The notes under the pieces: generated by a model
The model's database searches: none
Told to the model about the DNA's origin: nothing
What the model saw: the letters and a program-made list of their open reading frames with translations, nothing else
Shown here: positions 6,622-45,432 of the stretch, in pieces
Layout: every line of letters begins with the position of its first letter
Position numbering within the stretch: the stretch's first letter is position 1
Translations under genes and position numbers: made by a program
Assembly: GCA_902728285.1 (NCBI GenBank)
Contig: CACVBU010001153.1
Coordinates: 1,929,278-1,993,277 of the forward strand
Reading direction: 5' to 3'
DNA: 64,000 nt
Source: Clytia hemisphaerica
Taxonomy: Eukaryota > Cnidaria > Hydrozoa > Leptothecata > Clytiidae

Positions 6622-6674
6622 GTCATCATTTGTAACAGTTGTGATGGTGACGGTAAAGACTTTGGTGAGATATT

Positions 6675-19011: not shown

Positions 19012-22000
19012 ATGGTTAATAGCAAACAGCGCCTCTCCCTTCATGAATATTATATATTGGTGAAAAGGACCATTCTTGATTTCCAGGTATTATGTTTTTT
19101 TTTTGTTTTTTTTAAGAATAGTTATTGTTTTTTACATTTCCTAATTCATACCAGACTATGTGACAAAAAATTATACGTTTTGATAATTGTTGTTATACAG
19201 GAAACTCTTTTTTCTTTCAATTTTGATAATTCGATAAACATAAATGCTTTCAGATGCTTCAACTTGGTTTCTATAATGATCATCTGAGCAATTTCAATTG
19301 ATCAGCCAGACGGCACAAATCTTTGTATTACTTTCATTTAAATTTTTAGCATAAAAAAGGCTGAATATCGTAAGAAAAATGACATCATTCAATTAACATA
19401 TTATTAGCTAACAGAAAATTTGTAAGAAAAGTTATTTTTTTAGATCATAATCTGTACATGTTTTTTGTTTTGTTTTAAGAATCCAATTACTGGGCTCCTT
19501 CCACCAAGTTTATTTCATGGAAAGTTCAATGAAACGACCAACAGACATTCATGGGTCAGAGATAATGTTTACAGCATTCTAGCTGTATGGGCTTTGTCAA
19601 GGGCATACAAAAAGAAGACTGATTTTGATGCAGAGAAATCCAAACAATATGAGCTAGAGCAGGTATTTTACAACCTCGTTCCCTTGTATTATTGGCTTAC
19701 TGGTTGCACCAGATAATATTAGTTACTCGGCAAGCCTCGACCCCAATACGGTTTTTACTAACCCTGTATATCCCGTATCCCACCTCAAAACGACCTTGCG
19801 GATTTATATCGTTGAAGTCCCTTTTCAAGTTTCCCAAGAGCATGATAAAAACTAACAGAACTCTCTTAGTAGATACTTACATCAAAGAGCGAACTGTGAA
19901 AGTGACATTCGAAAGCGCATTCGTCAATACGCAATGTCTTCTTTTTTTCTCAATCGAACGTGAGGAAGACAGATACGGTATATATCCCACCTCTATGTGA
20001 TGTCTTTTAACCAATGAATTCGCTAGAATTTTAGGCAGGATGATTAACTGTTGACTTCTTTGAGGGTGTGTGTTGATATCAAATAAATTAATCCAATATT
20101 ACCTTTTTTGAAAAGTGTTCACAAAAGTTAATAACAAGCTATTTTGATAGTTTCATTCAGTTTAACTATTGTTTGCCTTCATAGTGGTCCAATAAGGTCT
20201 ACTTAACTGCTATTAAAAGTACTATTTACGTTAAATAATAAAAAATAACAATCTACAATCCATTTTCAGAGTGTTGTCAAGTTGATGAGAGGCTTATTAA
20301 TGAGTATGATGCAGCAGGTACGCTATTTCTTTGTACTTAAAGAATAAAATGATTTTCACAAAGAACTTTATTAACCCTAGGTTATGTCATGTCTAACTCT
20401 GTTTGAAGCCTAAAGCTCTTCTTCTCTATGAGCTGAGAGCTGCCTAATATGTTAGACTATAGACTATTTTAGCCGTAGTATGCATGGTTTAAAAAGCTTT
20501 TTGCTGGTAAAAGCAATGAATGTACTATTCAGAATTAGAATGCTGGTACAGTTAGGAATTGTTTACAAGAACCCTCATTTTTGGTATTATTTTTGTTACA
20601 GAGTGCAAAAGTTGAAAATTTTAAGAGATCCCAGCAAAAAGAAGATTCACTTCACGCTAAATACAGTTATGGTATGATTTTATGTTCGTCATTGATGAAT
20701 TTGTAACTCCTAACCAATAGTAGGAAAACATAGTGTTCTCCTAGGTCAGCCGCTCAGAGGGAAATATTATCGCCAGGTTTTGAAAATAATTCTTTCCCCC
20801 CTCCCCCAAAAGTAACAAGATTTTTGATCTCCCGTTCCTTTTTTTTTACTTTCCCTAATTTTGAAAACTGTCACTGCCACTTGCTCTTCTGAAAGTAGTG
20901 TTTTTCAAAACAATCAACAAAATATGAACTAATGAAGAAAAAAAAAAGATTTTGAAGCGTTGTCAAAGTATATCATATTTGTTTCTTAACCGTGTGTTTT
21001 ATAACTTAATATACTGAAATGTAATGAGTAAAAAAAGCAAAATAATGCGATAGAAAAATTAAAGATTAAAAAGTTAAGAATTTCACCACTTTTCGGGAAT
21101 CCCAACCACACATTTTTGGACCTACCCCGGTGGGATGGAGGTCCTATAAATTAACCTTTGTCCGTTCGTCCGTTCGTTCGTTCGTTATTAGCTTTTATCG
21201 AGATTGGCTCTTTGATTCTTTATGATTTTTTGCACAAAGATGCATAACTATAAACCCTCGAATGTGACGGAGCCCAGCGGAGCCCGACTTTCAAAAAGAA
21301 GGGGCAAATTTGGGCCAAAAAACGGCTAAAAACAGGTTTTTTGAACTTTGTGAAAAATTGGATCATTAACTTTTTCTGATTTTTTGCATGAAAGTAGGGT
21401 ACCATCCAGTACATCATAGGTAAGAGATGGCTCAAGTAGATTTTTTCAAAAAAATTTTGTTGGCTTAAAAAACGCATGTTTATCTATAAGAATCACTATT
21501 AATAAGCATACATCAATGTTCTTAGCCAAATTACTCAATTTTTTGATGAGATAGATGTTTTATTGCTCACAAGGTCTTGAATATGATAGAATATTTCAAG
21601 AGCATGATATTTTGGTTTCTAAACGTTTTTTTTATAAGAAACAAACGACTAAAGTTTTCCATAAGGAAACTATCTATAAGATGCTATCAGAAACATATTT
21701 TGAATTTCCTTTGCCAAATACTTCAGGTTAGAGTTGAAAGCCTTGAAGTCACAATTTTTCCATTGTCATAAACATTTTTTTTAATACACTTGTTTTGAAT
21801 TACTTTTTTATTCAAGAAGAAGAAATAATCAAGGTAACAAAACCAAAATGGGCCCTGGTGGCCAAGCAATTCTACAATTCCTTTTTTCAAATTTTACAGC
21901 CCATTCATTAAAAGCCAAAAAACATGACAATGAAGAGCTAAGTTTGAAAAAAAAACAAAAGCCTTCGCAAACCACTAGATGGAAATTCTTGGTATTAGCA

Positions 22001-25000
22001 GATTCTCATACATTTCTGCAAAAAAGTACCCTTTTTTTTTAAACTTCTGGACTAGATTCAAGATCTCTCATGTAGACATGTATTGATATTCGAAAAACAT
22101 ATTCGTCTCTACAGCATCTGCTTCCATTACCATGAAAAGGTTGAAAGATTTGTAAAGATACAAATTGTGGTTGCAAAGCATGCCATTTGAGAGCCCCCCC
22201 CCAGCAGACCTTTAATTCACACAATCACGCATTTTTTTCGACTTTCACACATTCCTGCAATTTTTTTCGAAATTCTTGCAATTTCTATTTACGCGAAGTT
22301 TTCCTTTTCACATATTACGCAGCTTTTTAAAAATATTAACCCTTTCATGCAAAAGAAAAAGCCCATTCAGGCATTCATGCAAGCCACTGGGGGCATTTAA
22401 ATCACATTCTTAATTCCCTGCAAACATTTTGTTTTCTTAGATTCTGGTAAGACAGTGGTTGATGACACAGGATGGGGTCATTTACAAATTGACGCCACTT
22501 CTCTCTATCTCCTAACCTTGGCACAAATGACAACTTCAGGTACAGTACAGTTTGCTAATATACCTCATTTGATTGAGTTTGAAAACCAATTTATAAGAAT
22601 TAAAATTTGATTTGGAACTGATGATGTTCTTTCGTTCGTTCGTCCATTAATGTCTATTTGTTCTCTCATTTGGCTAACTTTCATTATCAGGTAGGTCCGA
22701 TCATCATCCAGCTTGTTTCAGACAATGACTTTGTCAAATCCGAAAACTTTAAGTAATCTAGACTTTGAAATTCTTAAAACAATAAATTGCATGTGAACAA
22801 TGTTTTATTCCAAGTGCGTGCCCTTTAACTACCTCGAAATGTTTCTTCAGTAGTAAAGAGACTAGACATCAACAAAAACCCGAAATAACCTACTGATTAC
22901 TTGTCTAGTTATTAACACTGAATTTTTTCTCTTTGTTCATTTCTTTAGGGTTGCAGATCATTTTTACAAAAGATGAAGTTGATTTTGTTCAGAACTTAGT
23001 TTTCTATATCGAAATGGCTTATCGAATACCTGTAATTCTTTATTCTCGTTTTCATTTTCAATTGTGGGTTTTAGAAGGCTACTACCATACTTTTAAGTTT
23101 GCCATAATCCTTTTAAACCATCATAAATTACTTCTTGTGCGACAATTTTAAGCGTTAAAACTATTTTTACATAATTAGAAATATGAAAAATCATTTTGAA
23201 AATATTTTTTAGGATTTTGGTATATGGGAGCGAGGAGATAAGACAAACATGGGATTACCAGAACTCAATTCAAGTTCTATAGGAATGGCCAAGGTATCTT
23301 TCTCTTAGACCATTGCACATAAATGTTAATTTACAAAACATCTGATTCTATGTTTTTTTTTGTTGCAAAATTTATGCTTAAACTGTTATGGTTTAGACAA
23401 ACAAGGCTTGACGTCAATGTTATTCTATCTGACAGAATCTCAGGCTTTAAACGGCGTTCTCCAAAAGATTCCCATTTTTGTAGTTTTTATAGTTTAGATG
23501 CCTTACTTAGGAATGGCTCCAACTTTTTAATTGAAAAATTGTCATTATATTGTCCCAAAAAGATATTTGAAAATTTTCGAAATATTTTGGAACAATTCAA
23601 AAAAGTGACAAAAAATCAATACTGGAACATTGGGCTGTTCCATAAAATTTCCATACAGAGGTGTGGACGAACCTTTTCAAGTGAAAATAAATTTCTTGAA
23701 AAAGTGTAGATACCCCCTGGAAAATAGCAAATTTTGCAAAAGAACCCTTGGAAAAAATTATTTTTATGTCTTATAAATAGACTAGATTCTACTTCTAGCT
23801 GAACTTGCTTTTTGATAATTTTTGATGACGCTGAGTCCAGTGAAGTAGACTAGGAGCGTTTGGCGAGGTCGCCATTTTGAAAAAGAATGTTTAAAATCCA
23901 AAAAAAAAAAAAAACTACTTGGAGTTGTAAAGAAATGCTCAAAATTAAGAAACAAGCATCAATAACAGATTTGCAATACCTTATTTTCAAATAAAAAATT
24001 AGCTTCATTCTGTTTTCTGTTTAGCTTCGAAAAACAACTAAAATCTGGCGGTCTGTTTTACAGTCCGCCTAAGCAAAAGCATATTACCATATACTGCCGG
24101 GCCACTTAATCGCGCCATCCAGTCTATCAAAAAGCTTTAAGTGGACCCCGGGTCCAAAGTGATGGGAAAAATCAAAATTTAATAGCCGCATTCTTCTTCA
24201 CCGTTCAATATATGTCTTAAAGTGAGGGTGGACGAACTAAAATCAGCTGTTCACCCCCTGTAGATTCAAGAATAACTTTTTTACCCCCTGGAAAAATGAA
24301 AAAAACACTTCTTTAGACCCCTGGAAGTTCTTCTCGGATTAACCCCTGGAAATGTTCGTTCACCTTCTCTGTATGGTCATAAAATGGAATGGCCCATTCC
24401 TATTACCATAACCTTTCCTATTATGTTTAACACAAACTGCTATAATTGCTAAGTCTGATAGCAAACATGGCATTTCGTATTTTGTTAGGCTGCTTTAGAA
24501 GCAATGGACGAGTTGGATGTTTTTGGATCACGAGGTGGCGTCAGATCGGTCATCCATGTACAAGCTGATTGCATCCAATATTGTAAAGTAAGCACCGTAA
24601 TTTTTGTAGACTTAATCCCCCGTTGAGAATCTATTCGCTTTAAGTTTGAATCTCGTACGTTTTTGCTACCAGACGGAAACCTTATCAGTGTAATATCAGT
24701 GTAATAAGACTTATCCACTAAAGAGTACTTTCCACGGGGAAACAAAAAAGAATGCTCGTTTGAAGCGAATGCAGTTTAACACAGTGAACCAATAAACATT
24801 TGACTGAAGTGGTTTTTCCAAATTGAAATTGAAACTGTAATACTCCCGAGGGGGGCACTCGATTTTGAAAACGACCGTACGTTTGGCCAAAAATCAGGTC
24901 TCTAAAATCGGACCCTTACAGTGCAGGAAAAATTTGGCTGAAAATCGACCCTGTTAATGCAATTTTTCGAAATTTTTTGCCCTTTTCAGGGCAAAATTTT

Positions 25001-28000
25001 TTGAAATTTCTCAAATTTTACCTCAAAATTTGGTATTTTCTCAAATTTTACACCCTTACAGTGCACTTTTTCCCACTTTCTCACAAATCAACCCTTACAG
25101 TGCACTTCCAAAGTCCAAAAAACCTACCCTTAAGGGCCGCACGTCCGGTAGGTCACTTACCTGGAGTGCCCTCCCCCCCGGAGTAATACTGTATTGCAGA
25201 ACTGACTGCAGGTCAGGTAAATATTTAGCCTTTCCAGTGTGCAATATTTTTTGAAGAATGTGAACATTTTCAACCTTTTTTTTAATCTAAAGCTTCAAAC
25301 TGTCATAACAGCTTTTAATTTGAGAGTTAGAGAATGGTTTTGGTACTATTAGAAATGTTTTTACTCTTGTTTATAATCGTTCTTTTTAAATCCATCTGTT
25401 TTATGCCCTTTTAAATCTAGTGGTCAGGAGTTGTAATCTTAAATCGGGGGCTTCGTATATTGGCTATTTATGAACGATGTATACACGTCACTCAGATTTG
25501 AAAGTTAAATAACATGTACCGAGTGAGCTTAACGCCTGTATGGTTAAAAGTAGATATTTAGAATTTACCCCTATAAAAACGAGATAGGTAGGTACCCTAT
25601 GTGACTATCATTTAATGTTTTTTTGGATAAATCGTTGGTGCTAAGTTGCTATCTCGTTTTGAGATAGCGGTGAGAAAATTTGCACCCATGCCATATATTA
25701 CATTATTATCCAAGCACTGTTTTGCGATGATGTATTGTCGTCATTAATCGTTCAAAACAATTGAAACATGTGATGTGAAATCGTCACCCAGTACTGCCAA
25801 CATAACATTTCATAAGCTGGTGTGCAACTGAATAATATGATATTGAGACTTTCAGAAAGATGTTCTATTTTTGAAAAGTGCTCATTGGTTAGTGACGTCG
25901 ATATGCACATTCAAAAACGAGATCTAAAATAAGATCACTACTGGGCACTGCTATGGAAAAACGATACAAAAAATGTGCTTGCCTACTCACTCCAACCATA
26001 TCTCCTTTTCAAATATTTAACGACTTTTTAATTGCCTGATCACTTCCTATTTAATAGTAACCGCTGAATGAATTTTAATTAACATTCGATATTATAAGTC
26101 CGCTGAAAAGTACATTTTTCTCAAGAATTCAACAGATAGTTGAAAAATATGTGTTTTATTTCAATTGAAAGTAGTAGCTTGTTCGTCGTATTAAAGTTTC
26201 TTCTCCCTAGAATCAGCAATAGTTATTCTTTTACAAAATTCTTAACAATAAATGTTTTCTCGGATTGACGAAAAACACTTGAGCTTTAAAATTCTCGTGA
26301 TAGAATCTCGAGTTAACATGTAAAATTCGATGAAAAAAATAATTCCTATAGATTTTTCATATTTTGATACTATTGATCCTAATGAGCTAAACTTGCTTTG
26401 TTGTTGTCACATTTGCATCCATCGACGAGTATCAATCTTGTTTCATTACATGTAAGAGTTTTAAATAACACCGGGTAATTGCAAAGTGACGCCTGTGGCT
26501 AACCAATGTAAAGCATGTGCCTCCAGTCTGAATATTACGCAGCATATTTCTTTTTGGTCAAAACGATTTTCTTTTCAAAGAAAACGAAAGATCAATAAAG
26601 TGTACTTGTGGAAAGAGTAGAAAGATATACTAATGACATTAATAATGATGCAAATTCTGTTTTTATTATAATTATAAAGTTCATTACTTTTAATACTTAG
26701 TCACCCACTCAATATGAATGACTGTCATGTACCCAGTTAGAGTTTTATAAAGAGACATGGGTAAAGTCACATCAAAAGGTCGAAAGCCCGATGATAGCGA
26801 ATGAAAACTTAAATCGAGACGTGTATTGAGTTCGAGCGTATTATGGCAAGGGTCTTTGTGATTTTATTTTTACTAAACCTTTGAGAAGCGAAATGTTAGT
26901 TTTTCTTTTCATCTGAAGATAAAGAAGCCTGTCTATTCTGTTGATTGCGTAATGCAGGGTAATGCGTAGCACCGTCCTACGTAATCCACACTCATCCCTT
27001 CTCATACTTCTATACCCATTTTCTATTCTACTGTAAAAAAAGAAATGAGTTGACAATTTAAATTTTTTTGATCCGGTTTTAAAGTTTTGCATTAGGTCCG
27101 ATGAAAAGTTGTTTGTTGTTTTGCCGTGCCTTTCAGCATCATTAAAACTCCATTTTTCTGTCCATTATGACTAATCTCAATAGTCTATTCAATAGTGTTC
27201 CCATCATATTTTGTATGCTACCTTTTTTCTGCTTTCCATTGCAATTTTTAAAAGGAAGTGGAGCGTTTAAGCGTATCCTGCTGGTCTTTAGATAACAAGT
27301 CATCGTCATTTTCCCAGACTTGCATTTTCTCTTACTCTCCCTTCATTCCCTTGATTCCTTCATTACCCGTCTCATCAAACTACTCAAGATATCCACTATA
27401 AACGCTTAAAAATCGACATTCACCAGTCAAAGCAAAGAAACCAATTCTGAATATTGAAAAGAAGGAGGTACATAGAAGAAGTATTTTATTGTTTCACCTT
27501 TAGCTAATGTTAGTTCAGAGAGGCTGATTTTTCTTTTCCATGGCAACATCATGATATTGAATTGTCTTATATTCATTTTTCGCTATGTAATGAAATAGAG
27601 TATTGACGTCATTGCGCATAGTAAATGTTCCGTTCCCACAACCTTCTCTCTGTATCATTCCTCTCCTTTCAAGGATGCAATGACATCCGTATTTCCTGAG
27701 AAGCCCCTAAACAAACCCCTTCTTTCATTTTGCCGATAAAGACTGTCGCATCGGATTGCATTCAGACATCAAAGTTGTCCATCACCATAGAAATATGAAA
27801 TGATATTAATTTGAAAATCGCTTTTGCCTGGGGTAATAGGTCAGCGGGTTAGCGGGTATATGCCTTTCAACTTGGACCCCTACAAGATTTGAAACCGAGA
27901 AAAAGCCAAAAGCTTTTAATCCTTACAAGGTTTATTTTTGCCAGTAATTCAATCTGAACTGAAATCTGAATTGGTGATTTTCCAATAACCAAACCTAAAT

Positions 28001-29210
28001 CCATTAAATGCCGATAAATATTGGACTTTTTGATTTTTGAAAATCTTAAATTTTGTTTGAACTTGTGGGAGCTGTGCTGTGATTGTAGGTTTAGCAGACC
28101 TTAGACCTTCAAAGGGTTATTGACGACACATTGCAGTATATGTGATTTGCATCTCCAAGATTTAAAACCTATTCATTCAGCTTCATCATCTAAAGAAGTT
28201 GAGAATTATCATGAAAACTTTTCTATTTTAGGCCGTACTATATTCGATGCTTCCACGAGAGTCAGACTCGAAGGTACATTGTTTTGAATTGTTTCATTGA
28301 AGAACCTATGCTAAGATTCATTCTCTTCCTCCTTTTTTGTGAATAATTGAAATGGATTATTTTCACCAAAAACACTTATGTCAAAATATTGCAATACAAC
28401 ACATGCATCGCGCGGTGTCACTTTTCTCCCAGTCTCGGATCGTGCTTCCATTTAACTATTGGCAAGTTAAAGTTATGAAATGATATGGTAGCTAGCTCAG
28501 TACTGGCCTACTTTTAGGTAATGGGACGTCTTTTTTAACTTAACCAAACAGAAAGTGGAAAGAAAACGCCAATCACTTTTGTTTATATTTAGGAATGTAG
28601 TGCATCGTTGCTCAGTATTATCAGTTATCCAGCGTTTGCAGTTGAAGATACTACCATCATTGATGCTACCAAAAGTGAAATCCTTGGGAAACTTGAAGTA
28701 TAATTCTATATTTATTCTATAATTGTTTTTTTATTGTGTGTGTTATCGAAATCAGTTTGAAAAATGGACGACTTGGGTAATTTGGGTTTTTCGATTCGAT
28801 TTGATTTGTATTAGGATCACTCGTCACCTTTAAGTTGTGAAATTGGAAGCCCGTTTGTAATTGTTTTCAACACTTTTTTATTTAGGGTTCATATGGTTGC
28901 AAGAGGTTCCTTAGGGATGGACATCATTGTATGAATGAGGTATTCGACAACTTTTTATCCCTGCATCTTTAGTTTACCCGCCCAATATCATTTAAAGGAA
29001 GTTGCTATATTTGTTTTGATTTTTACAGGAGATCATTCGTTTAATCAGATCTTCGATTCATTCCAAATGTTTTTAAACTCTCTTCAGGATCGACACAGAC
29101 TACATTACGAGTTACACGAGCTAAGCAAGTTCGAAAAGATCGAGTGTGAATGGCCTTTATTCTTTTGTTATCTTCTCCTCGATGGCATTTACAACAAGAA
29201 CGAAGCACAA
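19012..29210 (+). CDS. PHKA: PHKA exons 1-12: glucoamylase-like domain, residues 1-354
   Basis: Exons: 19012-19086, 19480-19662, 20270-20317, 20602-20671, 22441-22539, 22949-23031, 23213-23293, 24489-24587, 28232-28273, 28593-28697, 28886-28939 and 29088-29210. They encode, in order, the ATG segment ([10 protein letters not shown]), [10 protein letters not shown] to [13 protein letters not shown] and [120 protein letters not shown], and [19 protein letters not shown]. Introns vary from about 150 bp to 3.6 kb and hold several repeats. This block matches the alpha family most strongly. In the family the glucoamylase fold is thought to bind sugar or phospholigand rather than to be a proven hydrolase. 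Confidence 0.93.
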
Positions 29211-32200
29211 GTAGGCTCTTATTACAGATTCTCGTTTTGTTATTGACCTTCACCAAATTAAGGGTAAGATTCAGAGTTATGTAAGATCTGATGAAATTGG
29301 AGTATATTCATTTCGACATTTTCCTCAAAAAAAGTTCTCGTTTTCAAAAGATGTTTGATCTTTTCCAAAAGTCATTCCAAAATACATTTGTGACTTTAAA
29401 AAAAATAGTTGATTTTCAAAGGAAATAAGAATAAGAAAGTTGCAAACAAAATTAAAAGATGCAATAAAGTCTTTTTAAAATGGTGGTTCAAATTTTTCAT
29501 TTACACATCAACAAAAAAAATTGTAATAATTTAGTTTCTAACTGATAAAATAAATTTTTGTTGGTCTTCTTTTTCTTGACATGCGCAGATTTCATTCATT
29601 CGCTCTTTGTTTATTTTCTTATAATTGTTAATGAGACGATAAATGATCCACAACCAACGATATCTTTTCCAACGACGAAGAACATTAACCCACACTAGGA
29701 CCGTCTCTAAATTTTTTTTTCATTCCTAACACGTAACCAAAACCCAATCATACTTTTATCAATAAAAATATGCCTCATCCGCTCTCTTTGAAAAAAATAC
29801 CAACGAATCAATGTAAAGCTGATCAATCAATCAATCAATCAATCAATCACCGATAACTACCAATATCTTTTGAACTTCAAAATATCACGTGGTCGATATC
29901 CCATGATGGTTCCGTCCTACACTACCTGTGTTATTTTTCAACATATTTTTGTTCTTAAAAGATGATGAAGTATTGTCTATGGAAGATGGTGGCTGTTGAT
30001 GTTTATTATTTATATTGTTTTGTTGTTTTTGTTTATTTGTGTTGGCTACCACCATTGAATTGTTATTAGAGTCACTTGCAGACACTACATTGGGTGTGCT
30101 GTTCGTAGTTGTTGTTGTTGATGCTGCTGTAAAATTTTGTTTATTGTATTCTCTATTATTGTTACTACTTGAATCTGATGTTGAGCGCAAAGTATTTTCA
30201 CTTCGAACTAATTCTTCCATCCACTTCAATCTTCGTTTTCGAAACCAATCCTGAATACGAATGAAAAAGAAAAGACATCAGAAAAACATTTCCTCGAGTA
30301 AACAAACTCTCATTTAGTATTTGTTGGAACTGCTCTCCTAAAGAATAAGACTTTTTCCAAAGAATTAGTCACTTAATGTCAGACATTGTCAGAGGGAGAT
30401 AGAGATTTGATTAACACTTACCCTAACGTCTTTATACAGAAGGTTACATTCCATCGCAATAATTTGAAGCTGGATATCATCTGGTTTTTGTTTCCTACTG
30501 AATGTGTCTTCTAGCTTACATTTGTGGATATCTGTGAAATGTTTTGGACATATGTCATCTTCATCTTCATCATTGTAAAAGTTATGATTAGTAGGAGAAG
30601 TTGGGCAGCTAGTCTGTACACCGATTGTGGATGTAACCATATCTGATGTAGCAGAGAAACCAATATTATTCGCTGGTGGCATAAGGGCGTACGAAATTCA
30701 ATTGTTCTACAATTTCGTTTATTGCTTAAAACAACACCTCCAGTGATTTAAAACCAACAATATTTTTCCTTGAAACTACCACAGCAATCCTTATGGTTTG
30801 ATAATACTTTCCTCGTTAAAGTTATATTTTCTTTCTGAAATAAAATCGGTAAAAAATATAAAGGAGTGAAATGTCGTACATATTATTTTGCAAGGCTATA
30901 AGTTCTCACTATTTCATCCTGTTTTGCATACTTTCTTTTGCTCCCTGGAACCTTGTTTTCATCTCCCTCTCTCTCTCTCTCTCTCTCTCTCCCTCTCTTT
31001 CTCCCCTCTACATTTCTGCTTCAATTTTTTTTCTCTATTTTTTCAAAACGTACTTTTCTCTTCTCATTTTTCTCTTGTTTTCCTTCTTCTTCTTCTGTTC
31101 CTCTGTACATCTTTCAGGTTTTTTTCACCTAGACCAGCTGCCCTTCACTGTGGACAAAAGAAATCTTCTCTTTATGTTGTATCTTTTAAAATATATATAT
31201 ATTTCGTGTACTCCTACGTCAAAACTTTGATAGAGTAGACAAGAGAAGAAGTGAAAAAGTCTTTGCGGAGAAGAGTTTCTTCATAAATAAAAAAGAAATC
31301 AAACATGCAAATAATATGAAGTTTCATTTGTATGAATGATATTTTAGCTTCTTTTTCTACCCTCAGTACCTTTTCTTTTAAGTTAGCTACTCCCGTACTT
31401 TTGTTTATCCATAAATTCTAGCGTCCTGTCTTGAAGGACGGCAAATTCCTTTCTTCTTTCTCAGACCATCTTGTTCTCATTGGATTTTAATGTTCAGTTA
31501 ATTAACTCCAACTAATCGCTTTTTAATTGAACTACATTGTAAAGCCGGCATACTTTATTATAGGTAACTCAATTAATATTAGAGAAAAGGTTTTATTGTG
31601 CCATAGCTTTACAAGTATCCACTTGGATAAAAAAGATAGAGAGAGATCTTAAGCCTTAACCGGACTAACTCTTGGTTTAACGATTTAATCTACCGTTAGG
31701 CGTCTTTCATCAATTGAAACTTTTTGATTTTTTTCTTATAATTTTTCGAAGTGAAAAACTTCTCCTTGACCTCTTGCCTATTTGTTCATAGAATTCAAAC
31801 CTTTTTCTTTATCTGAGTCAACTGAAAGACGTACTGATTATATTCTCAGAAAGCGTAGATAAAACTACACAAATTGACAGCAAGCTTTTCCATGTCTTCT
31901 TTCCAACGTACTCATGTCTCACATCAGTAAATGAATCGTCGAAGTGAAGTCTGTCCGTGAGGCTGTTCTTGACTAATATATAATGTGTCATTTGGTTGAT
32001 TGAAGCAAAACAGATATATAGATTTCTAGATATGTCGAAACCCTTCACTACGACATGAATTATTCAAACTTTTCTTCTTTTCTTCTTTATTCTGTTCAAT
32101 ATTCCACTTTTTTGTAGCCCACGGTTTTGGTTTTTTTGCTAACCATATATTTATCTTCTTCCAAATACAAAGGAAAAAGTCGCTGATGAAATCGGCAGAA

Positions 32201-35200
32201 ATTACGTTTTCGAAAAGAAAAAGGAAAGAGATTGGCAATAAAGAAGCAAAAAAGTCGGTACCAACAATGAAAATAATTTAACTTCTCGCTTCTCGTTTCT
32301 ATATTAAATTTTTCGCCCCCACCGACAACGAAAAAGGGACTTTCTTCTTTTTTTGTTGCGAGAATACTTGATTTTAGGTTGTGTGGGTAGATGGGACAAA
32401 ACCTTCACCCCACCCTGTATTCGCCAAATTCTTTCTTCCTTCAAAACTCGAATATTGCCATATATGGTAAAACTCCCTTCAAATAAACCAGTTTTCGTTT
32501 TTCTTAACAAAAGTATTTGCTCAGATGGTTGGTCTTTCATCTTTCATCAAAACATGCCATTTACTTTATTTGATTATATAATGCTGGCTGACCACCATTT
32601 TTTTCTTTTTTGTTCAACCCATTCAATACCTTTCAGGAGCTATCCTTCAATACCAGGAGCTTAAAACCACACATTTCAGTAAAGAAAATTCTCCTTCGCT
32701 CGGTTCACATACAAGTTCTTTTAATGATAGAGATTTGCACAGCTAACTTACACTCACTACTACACAATTTGAAGAATGAACTAACTCTCTTCTTCCCTCT
32801 AATCAGCATTCATACCAATATTAATGACTTTCAATTATGGTTGTTATGGAAACTACAGAACGTCACTTCCATTTTGGCTCTCTTCTCGAATACTTTCACA
32901 TACCATATTATAGCGTTCATTAAAAGTGCATGCTCTAAGTGATGCAAATATGGGTGCTCTATCTTCGCCTCTAGCATAAAGAATACTAACTGTCATTTAA
33001 AAAAACTTTTTGAGCACTGACCATTAGATTGCTGAACGAGACTGAACTAATACAGTGTGTCAGTATTGAACCAAAACGCATGATTTTCTCAGTGTTTATC
33101 TATCTTACTCTAACATTTAATATTCTTCGTGATTTCTGACATGCAACTGTGAATTTTGAATGACTTTCTCCTTACAAAACTTCACTTAATGACTCTATAA
33201 AGAAAGGTCACTATCAATAAAATCCATTTCACATCATCAAACCCATGCAATAATCGTACAAGTATTATTTGACGAAAGAGATGAACTTTCAATTGATAGA
33301 GGAATGATTTTGGCACGGTGATGCTTTTTTTGAAAGGTTCGTTTCATCATTAAGATAAAGAATCTCATGTTGCATCAATCCTCTCTTCTCTTTTTACCCA
33401 TCACCATCGCAATGAAAAATTTCTTCTTTCTTGTGTTGTGTATTTTAACCCCCCCCCCCCCTTTTGATTGAAACCACACATCAAATTTGATGTTTGCCTT
33501 ATACTCCAAATCTTATTGTTTTCTTTTCTTATGTTGATCAACATGGACATACAACCAACTTTTCTTTCTTGAAAATCATTTCAAAACTTATGTAATCGCT
33601 TTGAATCGATCATACTTTTCTCCGATGCTAAACTATTAAAATCTATCGTCTCAAATAATTTTATCGGTTTCGGAAATAACAAGTTCCCAAATATCAAATA
33701 CTTTTCTCAAACAGATAAAAATGTTGTTCTATGCGAGTAAATCAAAGCCGTTTAAATGTTGATTCAACTATAGGAAACTTCTGTAACACCTTCTCTTACG
33801 CTGACTTTCTCAAAGCAAAATGCATTTGGACAAGCTACTACTTAGTATCATTCAGATATCACGCTTCAGAACTTCAACAAAATTCTTTCACATTGAGATT
33901 TTGTGACAGAGAGAACTGTTTAATCTTTTTCTCCTGTTATGTGACGTCATGTATTTCGAAAGGTTGACTTATGCGAACTAATGAATGAGTAATGAAATAC
34001 GAACCAAGTTAACTCAAAACCGTATTTTCAAACAATATATCGCTTTATAAACATTCTCGGCTCCGAAATGAAGGCTTTCTTTCAAAGAGTATTGAAAATG
34101 GGGGTGGGAGTTTGTGTTTTTGTAACCTTATTAACCCCTTCTCGTTTTTCTTGACAAGTAAATTATAATTATTGAATCTCCTTCAATTCCGTTCTTACAG
34201 TTTGATCTTTGAATGATTTTACCGAAGACCTAAAAAACATTATCTCACCCTTTACTTACTACGTAGTGATCGATTGCGTAATCAAGATTTTAAGAATGAC
34301 GTCTATAGTTCTCAATCTCTCCTACATTTTTCTTTATCAATCTTTCCCTCTTCTTTTTCACTTTTAACCATAGATTATACTTTTTTGATCTCTTAAGATT
34401 TTAATCAACGAGTTGTCTAAGGTCATCTGGTCATCTAAGTCGATAATCTATATAGTTATTGGCTTTAACTTGTTATACTGAAAATGATACCTCAGCCGCA
34501 GTTGGAGACAATTAACATTATGGTGGCAGGGCGCACCAAAAAGGGGCGTATAGGCTATTTATCCGTTAACAGATCAGACATCTATGGATTTTTTGACAAT
34601 TGTCTTTTTTATCACTTCACCTTAGAGTAGCTTTGATCATTAAAAAGAAAAAATTGCGACGCGCTTCGATACTATTATATTTTCAACATTCTTTCACAGC
34701 CCACTGCTGTACGGAAGATAATCAAAGTAAAAGAGATCGACTGAAAATTCTAGGTGAACCAAACAACAAGTTAATAGTCAAATTTCTTATCCTCCCTCCA
34801 ACCTTTCTAACAAACAACACACGACAAAACCAGTGTCAAACGAATGTCTGATTGAACAATTTTTCTCATCATTTAACCTATGCTTAACATTATGTATTGC
34901 ACTAAAGAAGTATTGTATAATCAGCCAATAGATGTATTTCACACAGAAATATGCTTGCGTGCTCTCGAGATGGAACTCGCTGTGACTTTTGTTTTGTAAG
35001 CATTTTAAAGTATTTTGTATTAATCATCCCCCTTTTCATTGTTGTTCATTTCAACAAACTATTTCATCGCTCTGCACGATCACAAAAAGATAAAATTTCA
35101 TTTCTCTGTGAGAGAGAATACAATATTTTCTTGGCTGGATGTCAGAGATCTGCAACAACAAACCCTTCAAAAACCTCTTCAGACTCTGACTTTACTCTTC

Positions 35201-38200
35201 TCTCCTGTCCACATCTATGTGTGATGTCATTAAAACTTGAAACAATTTTAATCAATCATTCGGTTGCCCTCATTGACATTAAGGAGAATTATTTTCTTGT
35301 CGTCATTTTATATACGTCTGAAACTTTAAAAAAAAATATTGAGAAAAGCCTCTTTATCACAAATCCAATAAAAAGACGAGTAGTTGCGTGACGGTATAAT
35401 AACTCAATATTATTGACCTTGAACTTTATACAAACTTATTATGAATGCACGTTTTCATATTTTATGAACAGCTCGAAAAACAGTTTGCAACAGGGAATCA
35501 TCATAACCATGAAAAATGATTGAAATTCTTTTTTGTTCATTCGATATCATGTCACGTGATCGCTACGTCATTTCTCTGCTTTTTGGAAAATCCTCCTCTC
35601 CAGCTGAAAGTTATATGGGCGTATTCTATAAACCTGCTATCACAATATTCTTCAGCACAAATAATGTCCACGATATACAGACTCCAGTATTTATTTCTAA
35701 AGCTGGGATAAATACAAAACGAAATTGGCGTTAAAACATTATCAAAAGAAGCATATTTTTCCTGAAAGTGTAAGACTCTTTATCCTTGAAGAATTTCTTT
35801 GATGTCAAAGAGTAACACTGGACGATAAGATAGTGATCAGTGTAATTTGAACGTTATTTCACGTATGCTGTCAGCATCTTGATAAGTGCTTGTCAATGTT
35901 GACCTTACGTGCCTTTTCAAATTTTTCGAGCTTTGCCAAGATGTTGTGGTTACACTTCAAATACAGAAAAGATGCATAATAAGTCTGTTATTTGTTGTTG
36001 TTTTTTTCCAAAATTATTCAAAAAAGGCATGCTACGAGACTAGGAAAGTTTTCTTTTTTGAGTTTTTGAGACCCTACCTTTGACTATTGGAAATGAGAAA
36101 GGGTTCTCTGATTGACCAGCGGCACTCTCCAAGACACTGCGGTCATATACCGCTATTGTCTCATCCAAAACATTTCAACTACCCTTAAAATAATGCACCA
36201 GCTTTAACTTGCTTTAACAGTGATGTTTTAGTTGCATAACTGAATTTTGGCAGGCATTGTTTTGAGTTTGAACGATGATTTTTTATTGTCCGTTTCAGAG
36301 AAGTGATCGATCAAAAGACGGATTTCGAGTTATCGAAAGATCTAGCTCTTTCCAAAGAAACAACCAGACGTTTTTGAAAGGAAGGATTGGTGAATCGTAA
36401 CTTTCTTAAACATCAACTAAACATGCTAGATAAACAACTTCATCCATTCCTCCCTCTTTGCTCACGTCTACTTTCGGGTACCTAATAAGCGTCCCTCCCG
36501 CTAATTAATTTTTCGAAAATTCTTATTCCAATTAAATTTAGGAAAAATGTTTTTGAAAGTTTGAGAATTTAATAAGTTTGAGAATTTTTTCAATCACCCC
36601 GCTTATTCCAAACCCCCCGTTTATTAGGTACCAGAGAGTAGTGAAAAACAAAACGATGGGTCAAAATATTTTCGTGTTGAGTCATTGATCATCCTGCTTC
36701 CTCCAACGGAAATATTAATCAGATTTTGGAAAAACATTTTGTTGACAAGAGGGTATGCAGATGTTGCTTAATTCTAGATGATGATATCGCTTATTGCTTA
36801 ATTGTCCATTCGCTAATTGTCCGGCAGACAGTTCAATTAATCCATCATTCCTCGTCTCTCATCAAGTTTCGTCCTCAAAACGAAAATCCATCTCTGATTT
36901 TGAAAATTCATGCCAACCAAAATTTCATTTTTAAGTCTTTGTAAATCCAATGTAAATTGTGGAGTGGTAATTCTAGGCTTTGCACGACCGTACGATTTAT
37001 TCTTTGTCGAGGTTGGTTGTGCAATAGCTGCGGTTTCGGACAGATCAGTTTATTGTTGATGGGAATCATTAATATATGACTGAATTGATGAGAATTAACG
37101 ACCACGTTTAATTAATTGGCATTTAAAGGTTGTTAATTCGATTTTTGCACGTTAATTGAATGAAAGCGCCAACGGTATTTTTTCTTTGTGTATTTAGATT
37201 TCGAATCAGAAATATTTGACGCAGATGCCGTCACTTTTCGTCACTTTCCGTCACTTTCCGTCACTTTCCGTCACTTTCCGTCACTTTCCGTTATGTTAAC
37301 ACTAAGCTTCAACTTGCGATTTCGAAATCACCCTCTCAGCCGTTCTACGCCTGTCTTTAGTAAACGCCGCACCTGAATCTTTCACTGTTCAATCTAGAGT
37401 ATCCACTGGTGTAAATTGGAAACTTTGGCTAATGTAATGCTGGCCCTTGATCCGCTGCAGTCCCAAAAAGTAATGCTAATATGGCTGGCTTAAAAATGTC
37501 CGATAAAGTAATTTGGTTATAAATGTCTCACATAGTGACCCTGTAAGCTTTACTCATGGAGTTTTTCATTTTCTTCCACATCACATTTAGGGTTTTATAG
37601 GAAGGATTTGTACGTGATATTTTGATGGATCTCGTGAAATTGTAGACTCAATCTAAAATTAATAAGAAATATGTTGTTTTCGAATGTCATGAGTAGGAAG
37701 TTCAATTTTGCATTCACAGTGTAAGGTAAGAAGTGGGAATATCAGGAAAGATTAATTTATAGATCTGTTTGTAGGCCAGCACGATTTTCATATTGAAATA
37801 ATATTTTGCGTGATCATAAAGTTCTTCATTTCCTTCATTTAACATTTTGGTTTTTCCTCAACTCCTCCTGTTTGTACCGTTCACGTGTTTTCTAGGGAAC
37901 AAACGCATCATCTGGACGTTTACTAAAATCATCTCCGGGGTTTTCAGGCCAGTTTGACTGATTCAGACTACTTAAAACTGAAGTCCAAAAAAAAAGCAAA
38001 TACTCGTGATCGTGATCGCTCAATAAATTGTTTACATGAAGAGTAAAAATTCCTGTATGATGTACGTGAGTGGTTTTCAAGCCATAAAAAGGTCGTTAGT
38101 GTGACATTATTTCCACTTACAAAACTTTTCTCCTTCATATTATGTCATGGAGATTGTTTCCAATATATTAAAGGGGTTAGTGTTAAACCTCTCATTACAA

Positions 38201-41200
38201 ACGCATAATAATAAAGTGTTTTCCCGGGTCCTTTGTTCCTTCCATCTTCTTAGATAGCGAGCTGATCATGAACCATGCGAACCTAAACATTCAGTGTTAG
38301 CGTCTAATCTACACTAGTGACTGGTCCTAAGACACCTTCCATTCAAACAACTAAATTCTTCCCCAGTATTGATATTCAGGGGATCTTCAAATGAAATAAC
38401 CAAAATACGATTGTAAAGATCACGCCAAAACTTTCTGTCTTCACGGCAATCTTTACGTTGAGATTCTGATGTAATTAGTACTAGTAATCGTATGGTTTGG
38501 AGTGCAATTAACGATTAATCACGAGTAACAAAGGAGAAAATAGTAATTTGCACGAGTCCGAAGGACGAGTGCAAATTACGGTATTTTCTCCTTTGTTACG
38601 AGTGATTAATCGTTAATTGCACGACAAAACATACGATTCCGAGGTAATCGTCAGTAAATCGTCAGAAAAGAATAAGGGGACAAAAGTGTCCCCCCGCCGA
38701 AGAGTGCAAAAAGTGGTAATAGTGCAATTAACGATTAATCGCACTCCTCTAAACCAATCAGATTCGTGTAATTTTGCACGGCTGACGATTATTGTAATAA
38801 TGATTTCTCGATAATTACTATGTATCATCACGACACATTTGATTTTAATTAAAGGAAGATATTATCGCCGACGCACCAGAGGAACTTTTTTTCCCGCTAT
38901 GAGCGTGCCACTGAAAACGTATTTGTCTTCTGCTCATATCTACGGTTCTAGAAGGAGTTAGACGTTCGTTCACAAGTCATTAGATAGCTTGCAGCGGTGC
39001 CAGCGGTGAAACCTCAAATCAATTATTAGATAGCAGAATTTCACCCATTGCTAATTACGATCAAATCTCAAAAATGTATTTTTTTGCTTTGTTTGCTGGA
39101 ATGTCGGTCACAAAACCATTTTTCAATTTATTTTCTAATGCAAATGGGGTTCTAAAGTTATCGCTGAACCATGAAGCAGAAAATACAGTTCTATCGAATT
39201 CTTCTGAATGAAATTACGGTTTTGAAATCAAAACGAGGGTTATAATTATCTTGCTCTCCAAGGAACCTGCGTCCTACTTCAAATTTCATGTCTACCGACA
39301 TCGACGTGATTTGATCATGGTAGGTTCGACCCTGGTCAATAGCATAATATCCACTTTCTCCAGTGGGATGATGACACCTAAAAATGATAGTTTTCTTCTC
39401 GGAAAGATGGTTCCAAAAAAGAGTAACGATGGCCTCTTTGTCTATACTGTTAACAAATGACAAGCAAAGTGAAATATGTATATGTTCTCAATTAAAAGGT
39501 GGAGAAATACAGTCGATTGTTGGAGAGACTTTTGATTCAAACTGAAGATGGAGTTTACTTGTTACCAGAACTATTCTACGTTCCTCTGGAGAAGGTAAAA
39601 AAAGCTGCTCCATATTTTTGGTAAATTACACAGTAGCTACACCATTATTGTTATCGAACTTAATCAGATAAAGGATCAAGTCGTCCGAAACTTCTGAATC
39701 TAAATAATCATCTACTCGTTTAGTAAAATGATATTTTTCTAAAATGTCATTTCGATAAAACTTTTGATGAGTTTTTTCTTTAGATTTCGGACGCTTGAAA
39801 TTTTGTCCGAAATCTTTTTTTGAGACCTCAAAAATTTATTTTTAAACAAATTGGAAAGTATCTCTCAAGAAAGAAATGTCTGGTTACTTTGATTAACCTT
39901 GAAAAGAACATTTTAGTAATTTTCATTTTGCATTTGTTGTTTCAGTTGGATGCAGAGCGTGAAGAACCAAGAAGTCAACAACGGTTGTGTGGTGATCATG
40001 TACCTCACCTGTGGACACAATCCCTTTTCATCCTTGGCTTGTTATTGAAAGACGTATGTAACTCGTTACGATTCCTTATCTCGTATCTGATACTTTCATC
40101 GTAAGGTACTGAATATTAAGGCGGCTCTTACAAAATATGAGTTGCTCGATTTAAACTTCTCTCACAAATTGTCTGATCAGTTTGGGAACAGTTGTAGTTC
40201 TCTCGAAATTTTATTTGTTTATAGTTTGACTTTTAATGACTTTCTTTTTAAAGGGTTTTGTTGCTGCAGGCGAATTAGATCCACTGAACCGGCGATACGT
40301 CACTGCACCCAAACCAGAACTCGTTGTTCAAGGTAAAGGTGTTTCATTATTTAAGAATTGGATTGCGTGTTTATAACCAAAGCCAGTACTGGTGTCTCTT
40401 TCTGTAAAGATGTTCGGTCTTTGTTGTTATTTGTACGTTGTACGAAATCCCTTATCATTATCATAACATCCGTTGAGCTACAATCTGCCCTATTCCCTTC
40501 AAAACGCTCCAATTTGGCTCAAATTATTTCCACTCGATCCTTGGGGGTATGTATGACGAGCACCAAAACAAGGCTAAAACTTTGGTGTACAATGAAGGTC
40601 ATGATATTTGAGAAAAAAGGGAAATTTCCACGAAATCTCATAGCCACAAACGGTTTGGATGCGCTCTAACTTAGGTTGGAAGGGTAGAGTTTTAACTCTT
40701 AGTTTCAGCGTTAGAATCTGAGGATCCAAAAGCTCAAGAATGGTCTAGAATATAGCCTGGAAGTTTATAAATCTTTCCCGAATTGAAATATTCGATTAAA
40801 TTTAACAAATTGCCCAAAAGCGACTTTTTCGCCCGAATTTTAAATTTCTAAAAATTAGGAATTAACCAAAATTGTCAATATATTTTGACCGAGATTGTAG
40901 TATAAATATTTATATAACATAGCCCCATCAGCAGAAACAACTAATGAGATTATGCTTTCAGATTAATTACTTGCTTTAGCATGAACACTGACGACCTTCT
41001 TTGATTTTTCTAGTGGCACTGATAGCAGAAGATGAGGAAATCAAAGATTTGTTAGCTGAAAAAGGAATCGAATCGCAAACTGTTGAAGAAGTTTCGCCCA
41101 TCAGAATTTTGCCAGCTAAATGCCTCGTTCGTCTTTACAACAACCTAGGTGACGCTTTTTTCAACTTGTATAGTGAACAGCCTCATTTTACAAATCGATT

Positions 41201-44200
41201 ACTCCTAATTAGGATTTATGAGGAACAAGTCATCACAATGCCAAGCGTGTGTCGAAGTGATTTTTTCATTCTATTGTATTCTATTATAACTGAAATGCGA
41301 ATATTCTTGCTTTTAAAGGTCAAAATGCAAAGCTGGGTTTAAGTGGAAGGTAAAATAATTCTTTCATGCTTATTTGTGACACAAAATCCTAACGGGAAGG
41401 CTACTAAATTATTTTGGCCATATACGAGGGTTCACCTTTCGAATAAAATATCACGTTGTGATCAGACCTCTCACTCAAGAAAAACGAAACATTCCATGAA
41501 AAGGAAAGCTTGCGTTTCTAATATTTTAACCCAGTTAGTCTTGAAGCATTGCTTTAGCTTCAAATATCCATACTTTCTTGTAGGCCTAATTCAAGTTTGG
41601 GGATATTTGGTATCGGAAGTTTGTACCGTTCAGATGGTCACTTATTAGCATTTACTCCACAAGTAAGATATACGCTTCTTTATTTCATTACTGTGATTTT
41701 AATGATAATGGTATTTACATGTTCTACACCTAATTATATTTATCTTCGCATTTTATACACATAATGATATTATTAATAATTTGCGATTAGATATTCATAT
41801 ATTCAAAGACAACTTGTATAAGATAATGATACTAGCTTCAACACAAACGAGATAATTAGTTTTCAATGACATGGTGATGGGTTTGAATGTTTAGTGGATG
41901 TTTGCTAGTCAACTTCCACTTGTGGTTCACGAATGAAACAGCCGGGCTACCAATGCCAACCCAAGGACGGTGAGGATTGAGATGGTGATATGAGAGGAAG
42001 AGCTGATTCCTCCGTCGAACAAATTTTTCTTCATGTTACACTTTGTTTTGTAACAACAATCTTCGCACGTTCGTGTACTCTCTGCTCCGACCGTCTGCAC
42101 TGCACAGTTGTTTTTGCAAGCATCAATTGCTGCACAACCACGTGTAACATTTGTTGATTGGCTTGATTCGTTGATATAGACCATTCTTGTGAAGCATGTT
42201 CCATTGTTTTGCGCTGTACAATTCGATGTGGTGGTGGCTTCCATATTGTTGTAACATTCAGACACACCGAATACTGAAAAGCATTGAAAGAAAATGTCAT
42301 TTGACTGTCGTTCTCTTATTGGGAGAAGGCCGGTTTTCATTTAGACTGCAGATTTAACAATCATGTTAGGTAGAAAAACTTGATTTAGAAGAATCGAATT
42401 ATATTCATCAGATAGTCGGCCTTAGTGAGCTTTGAAAGAAGAAAAGATGTTGCGAGTTATTGTTTATCGATTTGTTTCAAGTTGCTTGAAATTTTAATAG
42501 TTTGAAGATGCGACTATACATAATAGCAAACTAACGACAGCAAGCTCCTACCTTCGTGCGTGACAGCCAAAAAAGTTGCAGTGTACAAGAAAAGACGCAT
42601 TTTGACGCGCTTACGAATTTGAGGTGGCTTGAGTAACACAATCGCTTTTCAGTTCCAACAGAAACTTGAACTAGACAACAACTCTCTCTCTTTTTGTTTT
42701 CATTTTTCGCTTTTCTCTTTGACAAGCCTCTTTTGATATGAATTATTCAGCATCAGAATGCGTCAGTTTTCAATGGACAATGTGACAGTCTTTCTTGTGA
42801 ATAATCTAACATTCATTAATTTATGATCAATACGTGGCATTGTTTATGGTTTTTTTGTGTTGTTTGTAAATTCCTGCTGTTTTTTTATAAGTGTTAAAAT
42901 ATCGCAAGGTTTTTTTAATGTAATCAATTGCATTGCAGCATGCTCAAGGCCCCGTCCTAACGATGTCTTTTTTTGGAAAGTGACTCCGTCGCGTTTCATG
43001 ATGTGAACCCGCAAACCTGGTCCTCTCCTTAACGCTGATGTTGAATACATGTCCCCCTATTATGGTTTACTTTCTGCACAAATGAAAGTTTGTCATAGAA
43101 AGCTGTAAATCAAGTAATAGCTAAAACTGAATATTTTCTTTGGTTCCATTGAGCTGTCTAGGTTTGAAGTTGTAGCATTGAAGTTGAGTAGAATCAAACA
43201 AAGAGCCTAATATTTGATATCATCTAAAATATTTTTCTAATCAATTTTAGTCAGAACTTAACACCAAACTAAGGACTGACATCTTTCTTTGTTTTTTTTC
43301 TTGTAGTTTTTGGATTACCGTCAATTTTATTTGTGCTTGGACAACGAGCTGGTGATCGACTCTTTCAAAACAGAAATCGAATATCTTCGTTCCAACTGGA
43401 AACAACTTGGTCGACCGACATTAACTCTTCCTATTACCCATGCTCTACTAGGTAGATTTTTGCTATTTTGAAAAAATATGCTAGACTTTTCCTCTAACTT
43501 TTGAACCGCATACTAAAACCTAAACTTCTTGACATCTCTAAAATTCATTTTAGAAAATTGATTTGTAGAAGTGAATTTAGAATTCCGCCCAAGTCCGCCA
43601 CAGCGATTGCTTGTTCTGTGGTAACCGCCCAATCTGCAGAAATTGTAAACTCGATAAATGATCAAAATGTCAAAATGATCCTAAATTTTGTACAATGATT
43701 CACCATCAGATACACCCCCTTCTCACAGACTCACTGGGACCCCTTCCTACTCGAAAAGTTGACCAAGATATCGTCCCCAGTGGAAAATTATAATCTAATT
43801 TTTTGGACCTACCCCGGTGGGGTGGAGGTCCTATAAATTAACCCGTGTTCGTTAGTTAGTTAGTTAGTTTCATTCAATTTTTCTGATTTTTTGCACAAAG
43901 GTGCATTACTATAAACCCTCGAATGTGACGGAGCCCGATTTTCGAAAAAAAATTTTTTCCGGCCGGTAGAACCGGAAATGTCCCGAAAAAAGCGGTTTTT
44001 TGAGATTTTCTCGAGATTTTATCATTAGTTTTTTGCGATTTTTTGCACATAGATGCACATTAGTACTGCCGAAAAGGTGTCGAAAACCGTTTGCCGAAAA
44101 AAAAATTTTTCCGGTCTGTAGAACCGGAAATGTGCCGGAAATCGTCGTTTTTTTCACATTTCCGTCACATTTTTTCAACTTATTTAATTGTTTCTTTACA

Positions 44201-45401
44201 GAAAAATGTTCTTTATGATGATGCCCAAAATTTAGCATTGTTTGATTTCCAAAAAAATCATCCTTTGAATCCGGAACTCCTTAAAAATCGCCGGAACAGC
44301 CGAAAACCGGCATAAAACGGTTTTCCTTCATTTTTTCAACTTATACTCGACAGATTTTCATGATTTTTTGCACAATGATGTAAAATGGCAATGCCCAAAA
44401 TGTGACAGAGCCCAATTTTCGAAAAAAAAATTTTTCCGGCCGCTAGAACCGGAAATGTCCCGAAAAAAGCGGTTTTTTGAGATTTTGTCAGTTTTAATTT
44501 TCTCTGAATGATTGATTAAAGTGTCGATATTATTTTTCTTTCACCGTTAAACATCGATGCGTTTCTTAATTGCTTTCTCCGTTCCAATAGATATATAAAT
44601 CGAAATTTAAAATTATACATTACTTCCATTAAATTCTAATTATTCGTTTTATAAATAGGTAGGTCCATTAAAGTATTACTTGTTTCCCGCTGAAATAAAT
44701 ACGATGAACAAATCCATCCCCATCGAATTTTTGGTCCGTTATTCTTACTCCCACTGGCTGAAAAAATCTTACTGGGTCTGTGAGAAGGAGAACTGTGAAA
44801 TGATTTCCATGAAAATACTTGTGTCGCATGCTCAATCTTTCTAGACAGGCTAATGACTACGAACTACTCTTCTACCAGTAAAGTAGAATGAGGGAAGAAA
44901 CTTTCAGATTGCTTTCGCCATTTATTTCTGAGAGGCACAATTATTTTCCAATTTTTACGTCAAAAGCTTTCACGTCAATTTTTATGTCATGTGGTCTTTT
45001 TCTTTCAAGTTGTTCTCTATATAATAGTGGTCGTTGTGGGAAGTTTCGCGGAGATTGCAATTATTGTCCCCTCCCCTGAGGCAACACAAGGGGAAAATAA
45101 AGTTAAAGTCGAAGAAATATAGCCGGATGATTTAATTCAAGAAGATGGAATACCATTTTAGTTCGAAAATTTTGGTTGCGATCACAAGATTTGCGAAGAA
45201 TATTCTTTCCAACAATTTGAGAAAAATAATGCCGTGATTTTCGCTATTTTTCCACCCCACGAAAGTTTGTACCCACCAAAGTTTGTACGTCTAAAGTACA
45301 TAAAAAAGTTTCTCTATTGCTGAAATTCTCCAGGTGAATAGTTTTAAGAATAAAAGCTATGTACGAGCTGATAATGTCATTATTCTCGTTCATTACGCTG
45401 A

Positions 45402-45432
<31 letters not shown>

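Follow-up and report, generated by a model that had tools for sequence, protein, structure and literature searches.

Vertebrate HOPX is the best-known case of a homeodomain whose fold is kept for protein contacts alone. The protein is described as retaining the fold without binding DNA and as working through SRF and HDAC2 (PMC9179269). In a model of LEUTX, I47, K50, N51, A54 and R58 are used on a TAATCC site (PMC6258689), and DNA binding by the isolated homeodomain of CERS (ceramide synthase) was seen in a one-hybrid assay (PMC4901127). Introns of PRD-class homeoboxes have a characteristic position in Cnidaria: of 33 such genes in Nematostella, 31 are interrupted by an intron at nucleotide 139 (PMC1779571), which, as we read it, is homeodomain site 46/47 in phase 0. 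Divergent homeoboxes have also been described inside other genes of C. elegans, with ceh-85 lying in math-32 on the opposite strand and ceh-74 in a carboxylesterase intron (PMC4448998), and nesting of a homeobox in the intron of another gene is ordinary.

Here we describe a gene from a 64,000-nucleotide stretch of cnidarian, probably hydrozoan, DNA (the whole stretch analysed, hereafter the window). The account that we favour, with a confidence only somewhat better than even, is that this gene is a protein-coding PRD homeobox, likely a Pitx duplicate, lying antisense in an intron of phosphorylase kinase alpha (PHKA), and that its homeodomain has kept the fold and lost the DNA-binding face, as in HOPX.

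A homeobox gene nested antisense in a phosphorylase kinase alpha intron

As the original prediction had it, two minus-strand exons join in phase, and the open frame and phase-0 GT-AG intron give a spliced product of 208 codons and a stop (Table 1). The intron falls exactly at homeodomain site 46/47, as also predicted. The junction itself stands, with the correction that 30421-30251, the bases first given for it, are the ends of the intron; the exon bases that meet are 30422 and 30250. After the homeodomain, exon 2 encodes a tail rich in Ser, Thr, Asn and Gln that runs to the stop.

Table 1. Coordinates of the nested homeobox gene and of its host in the window.
Feature	Position	Strand	Size, content and basis
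Host gene, phosphorylase b kinase regulatory subunit alpha (PHKA)	19465..55002	plus	First to last matched exon
PHKA exon, residues ~306-351	29085..29222	plus	phmmer against 8jfk chain M, E 5e-8; tblastn; upstream flank of host intron
Next PHKA exon, residues ~347-380	39496..39597	plus	tblastn E 9e-4, colinear
Exon 1	30422..30682	minus	261 nt; ATG, acidic N-terminus; homeodomain positions 1-46 (helices 1-2 and start of helix 3); open frame, PF00046 match of spliced protein
Intron	30251..30421	minus	171 nt; GT-AG (GTAAGT...TTCAG); phase 0, homeodomain 46/47
Exon 2	29885..30250	minus	366 nt including stop; homeodomain positions 47-59
AATAAA, possible polyadenylation signal	29610..29615	minus	~270 nt 3' of the stop; sequence only

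The host was identified on the plus strand. A tblastn search, with a PHKA sequence as the query, placed 27 of 33 rows colinearly over the host interval of Table 1, some of these rows being weak. Three plus-strand stretches of the window match PDB entry 8jfk chain M, and the remaining two frames of 24000-39001 gave no PDB match. A Pfam scan of the three plus-strand frames of 18000-47999 found only two GH15 pieces, which are explained by phosphorylase kinase alpha. Since the exon for residues 306-351 ends at about 29222 and the next begins at about 39496, the homeobox gene lies antisense in a 10.3-kb PHKA intron, some 660 nt from the exon upstream. A catalytic kinase was rejected as the host, because a strict kinase motif search came back empty and the GH15 pieces are those of phosphorylase kinase alpha. 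The predicted position antisense in a kinase intron therefore stands as far as the nesting goes, with the host amended to the regulatory subunit of phosphorylase kinase.

This arrangement bears on a different explanation, in which the main effect of the locus is on its host and the regulatory DNA of the opposite nested gene drives or interferes with PHKA transcription. A parallel exists in C. elegans, where ceh-10, nested opposite its host polq-1, induces a short form of the latter (PMC12274878). An effect on the host would leave the kept protein core described below unexplained, and we consider it improbable as the main role of the locus.

We further note several other features of the window. 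Another frame on the minus strand within PHKA (41927-42340, 137 residues) is cysteine-rich, with N-glycosylation-like sites and a hydrophobic end, and is Ly6/uPAR GPI-anchored-like by eye; it has no Pfam match at E <=0.01. Dispersed repeats of ~320-380 bp, each with at least 40 genome matches, lie in PHKA introns at ~23775-24150 and ~53745-54070. At 1051-6753 and 6675-7604 on the minus strand, a Pao-type retroelement with a long open frame (Peptidase_A17, E 1.1e-30) is adjoined by a tandem array at 7072-7602 (25 copies of 21 bp, 98% matching), in which several frames are open. Rfam and tRNA scans of the window found no match.

The source of the DNA was placed through mitochondrial sequence in the genome. 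Its one COX1 match, on contig C900, contains three TGA codons. Under code 4 it aligns to solved COX1 with Arg at sites such as LIRLEL, MRAPG and LTDRNFN, where code 5 gives Ser, so AGR stands for Arg. Among animals code 4 occurs in cnidarians, sponges, ctenophores and placozoans. On the same strand, upstream of COX1, cytochrome b can be read, followed by what appears to be the end of nad4, and siphonophore data are reported to contain a cob-cox1 contig (PMC4655093). Taken with Hox- and NK-type homeodomains recognised by eye, this indicates a cnidarian and probably a hydrozoan.

A homeodomain that spans two exons

Indeed, when the joined 208-residue translation was searched against homeodomain models, as had been proposed, PF00046 matched residues 49-97 at E 4.9e-8 and 33.1 bits (cut-off 22.9), over profile positions 7-55 of 57, and the match spans all three helices. 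A search of NCBIfam gave no match. The gap-free alignment, first claimed for homeodomain positions 16-56, extends over 8-57. The residues on which the prediction rested (L16, F20, A35, L40, V45, W48, F49, R52 and R53) are all present, and positions 50-51 read R-K, so that Asn51 is absent, as stated. A PDB sequence search returned Pitx2 (E 2.7e-6), aristaless (7.7e-5), Nanog (2.9e-4) and HOPX (0.034).

The junction was compared with chance pairings by means of a profile built on 61 homeodomain rows of other genes (59 of this genome and two of the PDB), which scored every phase-0 GT[AG]/[CT]AG pair in the whole window that had an intron of 50-1,500 nt between frames open for 47 and 14 codons. 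The junction of the window gene ranks first among 3,869 phase-0 donor/acceptor pairs, at 36.8 bits. Nine other pairs exceed 10 bits, all of them with the same donor and none above 25.0 bits, so that the second exon adds ~12 bits over the best alternative acceptor. The next independent pair in the window scores 9.9 bits, and the best among 35,813 pairs from 20 dinucleotide shuffles scores 11.3 bits.

When PF00046 was searched exon by exon across the genome (417 Mb, 951 contigs; 150 of 152 candidates scored), the window gene did not appear among the 84 matches listed at E <=0.001. This bears out the view that neither exon alone resembles a homeobox, and exon-by-exon homeobox surveys can miss such genes. 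Among the matches listed from the homeobox, homeodomain and nested-gene literature no such gene is named, which does not prove its absence from print. The viral contigs searched yielded no relative.

PRD class and a likely Pitx origin

The window homeodomain belongs to the PRD class, and its nearest relative in its own genome is Pitx. Its phase-0 intron at 46/47 is that of PRD-class genes in Cnidaria. In the genome at large, 29 exons have a profile match that stops at or before position 48, and in 20 of them GT directly follows codon 46; most of these 20 are PRD-like by eye, L092 is not, and L095 is there by chance. The donor of the window gene lies at the same codon and in the same phase as that of its own Pitx exon (L070) and of many other PRD-like exons. 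This placement is further supported by the closest sequences, with Pitx2 and aristaless on top of the PDB search and Nanog next, and with all three best own-genome matches PRD-like. Another divergent PRD-like exon of this genome, L097 (C417:846700-847037), has a 46/47 donor, an unusual helix 2 (YIDKLSRKVHLQQYVIK) and a long branch.

The genome holds a single canonical Pitx copy on C815 (L070 and L109); the second-best place of the Pitx search has 47% identity. In an ungapped BLOSUM comparison over positions 6-46 with 80 genome rows, a few of which (L001, L037, L042 and certain rows of TALE type) stand out of register, L070 came first at 61 and an aristaless-like exon second at 46, and the best of 500 shuffles reached 27. 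The two homeodomains are identical at 22 of 52 positions, and own Pitx alone, among 59 other homeodomain rows, shares C38 with the window gene.

A tree of 62 rows and 57 columns groups the window gene with L070 and PITX2 at support 100/82; the branch of the gene is very long, at 10 changes per column, its composition is odd, and the bootstrap had not converged. Left out of it were 21 fetched loci (duplicates, TALE, SIX, and partial or out-of-register rows), along with L005, L035 and L037. In an earlier tree, in which L001 was misaligned by one column, the free search placed the window gene apart from Pitx, and the tree constrained to the Pitx clade was 8.2 log units better than the free one.

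A different parentage has to be weighed here: the gene may be a divergent PRD homeodomain that came from a non-Pitx family (Alx, Otx or similar) or from a lineage-specific one and lost its DNA face in the same way. The AU test rejects neither a grouping of Alx type (p-AU 0.228) nor one that pairs the gene with L060 (p-AU 0.203). Pitx nevertheless tops the pairwise score, the tree and the PDB search, and H7, R46 and C38 are held in common with it; we therefore think a non-Pitx parentage unlikely, and a Pitx origin likely but not proven.

Two further family features were considered. The Pitx family carries a C-terminal OAR motif. An OAR search to E 10 found none in the window protein and none in the 167-residue exon-2 piece of own Pitx either, and its absence from the window protein says little for that reason. 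Lys50, the Pitx-family residue of bicoid-type specificity, is R50 in the window gene.

A conserved core beneath an altered DNA-facing surface

Comparison with own Pitx separates two sets of homeodomain positions, those that we take to be core and those that we take to be DNA-facing. The 11 core positions (8, 16, 20, 34, 35, 38, 40, 45, 48, 49 and 52) are all identical, as are 3 of the 15 DNA-facing positions and 8 of the remaining 29. By Fisher tests the core differs from the DNA face (4.9e-5) and from the rest (3.3e-5), and the DNA face does not differ from the rest (0.72). Of the residues of the genome consensus, the window gene has 2 of 14 on the DNA face, where 32 complete homeodomains keep 7-14, and 9 of 11 in the core, where the same homeodomains keep 6-11. 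The DNA face thus appears to have drifted like free surface with the core unchanged. The kept hydrophobic core leads us to infer that the three-helix fold is retained.

The replacements go well beyond Asn51 and include P5, D44, D47, R50, K51, L54, M57 and E58. The earlier description of a fast-evolving homeodomain is supported. At positions 47, 50, 51, 54 and 58, those used by the LEUTX model, the window gene has D, R, K, L and E. The pair Asn51 and Arg5, expected of a DNA-binding homeodomain, is replaced by K51 and P5, whereas N51 is invariant in the other homeodomain rows scored (32 of 32), as is R5 (59 of 59), a count that excludes 21 fetched loci, among them the CERS-like L105 with R51. 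We recognize a detection bias, in that a copy with a ruined core would have escaped notice. R5 and N51 are as conserved in these rows as the core, so the same bias would have favoured them too.

Locus L105 (C924:273238-273557), CERS-like by eye, is the sole row without N51 among 34 read across position 51, four out-of-register rows having been read by eye. The absence of Asn51 does not by itself establish that DNA binding is lost, because the isolated CERS homeodomain bound DNA and L105 has R51. We also considered and rejected the window gene as a CERS itself, with its homeodomain between transmembrane helices: no ceramide-synthase domain was found to E 10, and no hydrophobic segment is seen by eye.

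The main rival to our reading is that the gene encodes a working transcription factor of shifted specificity. Helix 3 is still basic (R50, K51, R52, R53 and K55), which leaves room for weak or altered DNA binding, and the helix with R50-K51-R52-R53 could recognise a different site, perhaps together with a partner. The DNA binding of the CERS homeodomain and R51 in the genome's own CERS-like locus favour such a factor. Set against it are the loss of R5, Y25, R31, I47, N51, A54 and K58 of own Pitx, all changed, the acid that D44, D47, E58 and E59 would place near DNA, and the net charge of positions 1-57, which is +3 here and +9 in own Pitx. We judge a shifted specificity to be unlikely, on a par with a non-Pitx parentage. 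DNA binding of the window homeodomain is likely to be altered or lost.

A second copy and the question of decay

A second copy of the gene lies on contig C398, with 99% identity over 1,161 nt (the window is on C796). C398:41100-73000 corresponds to window positions 28401-60072 in pieces that are 86-99.7% identical, with many indels, and includes the 3' half of PHKA together with the homeobox; the PHKA exon piece at 24470-24720 occurs once in the genome. Either C398 carries the other haplotype, interrupted by a break, or its copy is a partial duplicate. Both copies have an intact frame, with no stop or frameshift, and the same splice sites. They differ at 0 of 261 positions in exon 1, 4 of 366 in exon 2 and 2 of 171 in the intron, and none of the three indels between them touches the coding part. 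Coding SNPs (4 of 627) are not rarer than those outside (13 of 2,272), on few differences; three of the four alter an amino acid, all three in the tail. In codon usage, exon 1 falls in the top 3% of background and exon 2 at 53%, and an antisense frame of exon 1 scores higher.

These data are what there is to say for a homeobox copy that is dead or decaying and has an open frame by chance: coding changes between the copies are not depleted, codon usage gives no clear coding signal, the tree branch is long, and human SEBOX with its K51 is itself suspected to be non-functional (PMC2211742). Neither copy, however, has acquired a stop or a frameshift or lost a splice site, and random decay would not yield a core that matches Pitx at 11 of 11 positions with only about a quarter of the others kept. 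The contrast between the core and the DNA face (3 of 15) argues against plain decay, and we regard a dead copy as improbable, slightly less so than a main effect on the host.

A proposed HOPX-like role

In a dead copy, losses would be expected in the core as much as on the surface, and a normal factor would be expected to retain N51 and R5; a HOPX-like role is favoured for these reasons. As we envisage it, a Pitx duplicate would have diverged while nested antisense in the phosphorylase kinase alpha intron, and its homeodomain would have kept the hydrophobic core and lost the DNA-reading surface, so that a TAAT-type site would no longer be recognised. By analogy with HOPX, the protein, which we presume to be expressed, may bind or titrate transcription partners, perhaps those of Pitx, through the homeodomain and the polar tail. 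More tentatively, and with less than even confidence, we suggest a cnidarian Pitx duplicate without canonical DNA binding, under selection on the fold alone, that would act as a Pitx-type partner or competitor and be an independent, non-vertebrate analogue of HOPX. If true, the gene would be a case of a homeodomain fold kept for protein contacts alone, with the core of its parent family and a DNA face free to drift. Seven homeobox genes of Hydractinia symbiolongicarpus are unclassified (PMC11067881), and unclassified hydrozoan homeobox genes may include kin of this one.

Comparison with known systems

With Pitx the window gene shares H7-F8-T9, P26-D27, C38, V45-R46, W48-F49, R52-R53 and K55-W56 along with the 46/47 phase-0 intron. 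It departs from Pitx in the seven changed residues listed above and in R50 instead of K50, and also in its acidic N-terminal arm, its antisense nesting and its low-complexity tail. The nesting recalls ceh-85 and ceh-74, likewise divergent homeoboxes within an unrelated gene's intron, in another phylum and without evidence of a common origin.

The CERS-like L105 resembles the window gene in lacking Asn51 and in its W-F-R-x-R-R helix. Its homeodomain precedes a hydrophobic, membrane-helix-like stretch that the window gene does not have, whereas the match of the window gene covers helix 1 and the PRD intron.

Human SEBOX, like the window gene, is of the PRD class and has Lys51 (PMC2211742). SEBOX has W53, whereas the window gene keeps R53 and changes many more contacts, and we do not claim kinship between them. 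HOPX and the window gene are both PRD-like, with a 46/47 intron and lost DNA-contact residues (PMC2211742, PMC9179269). HOPX has 73 residues, with a single residue inserted between its first two helices, while the window protein has 208 residues and aligns gap-free with Pitx2 and aristaless. HOPX and human SEBOX are precedents for the window homeodomain.
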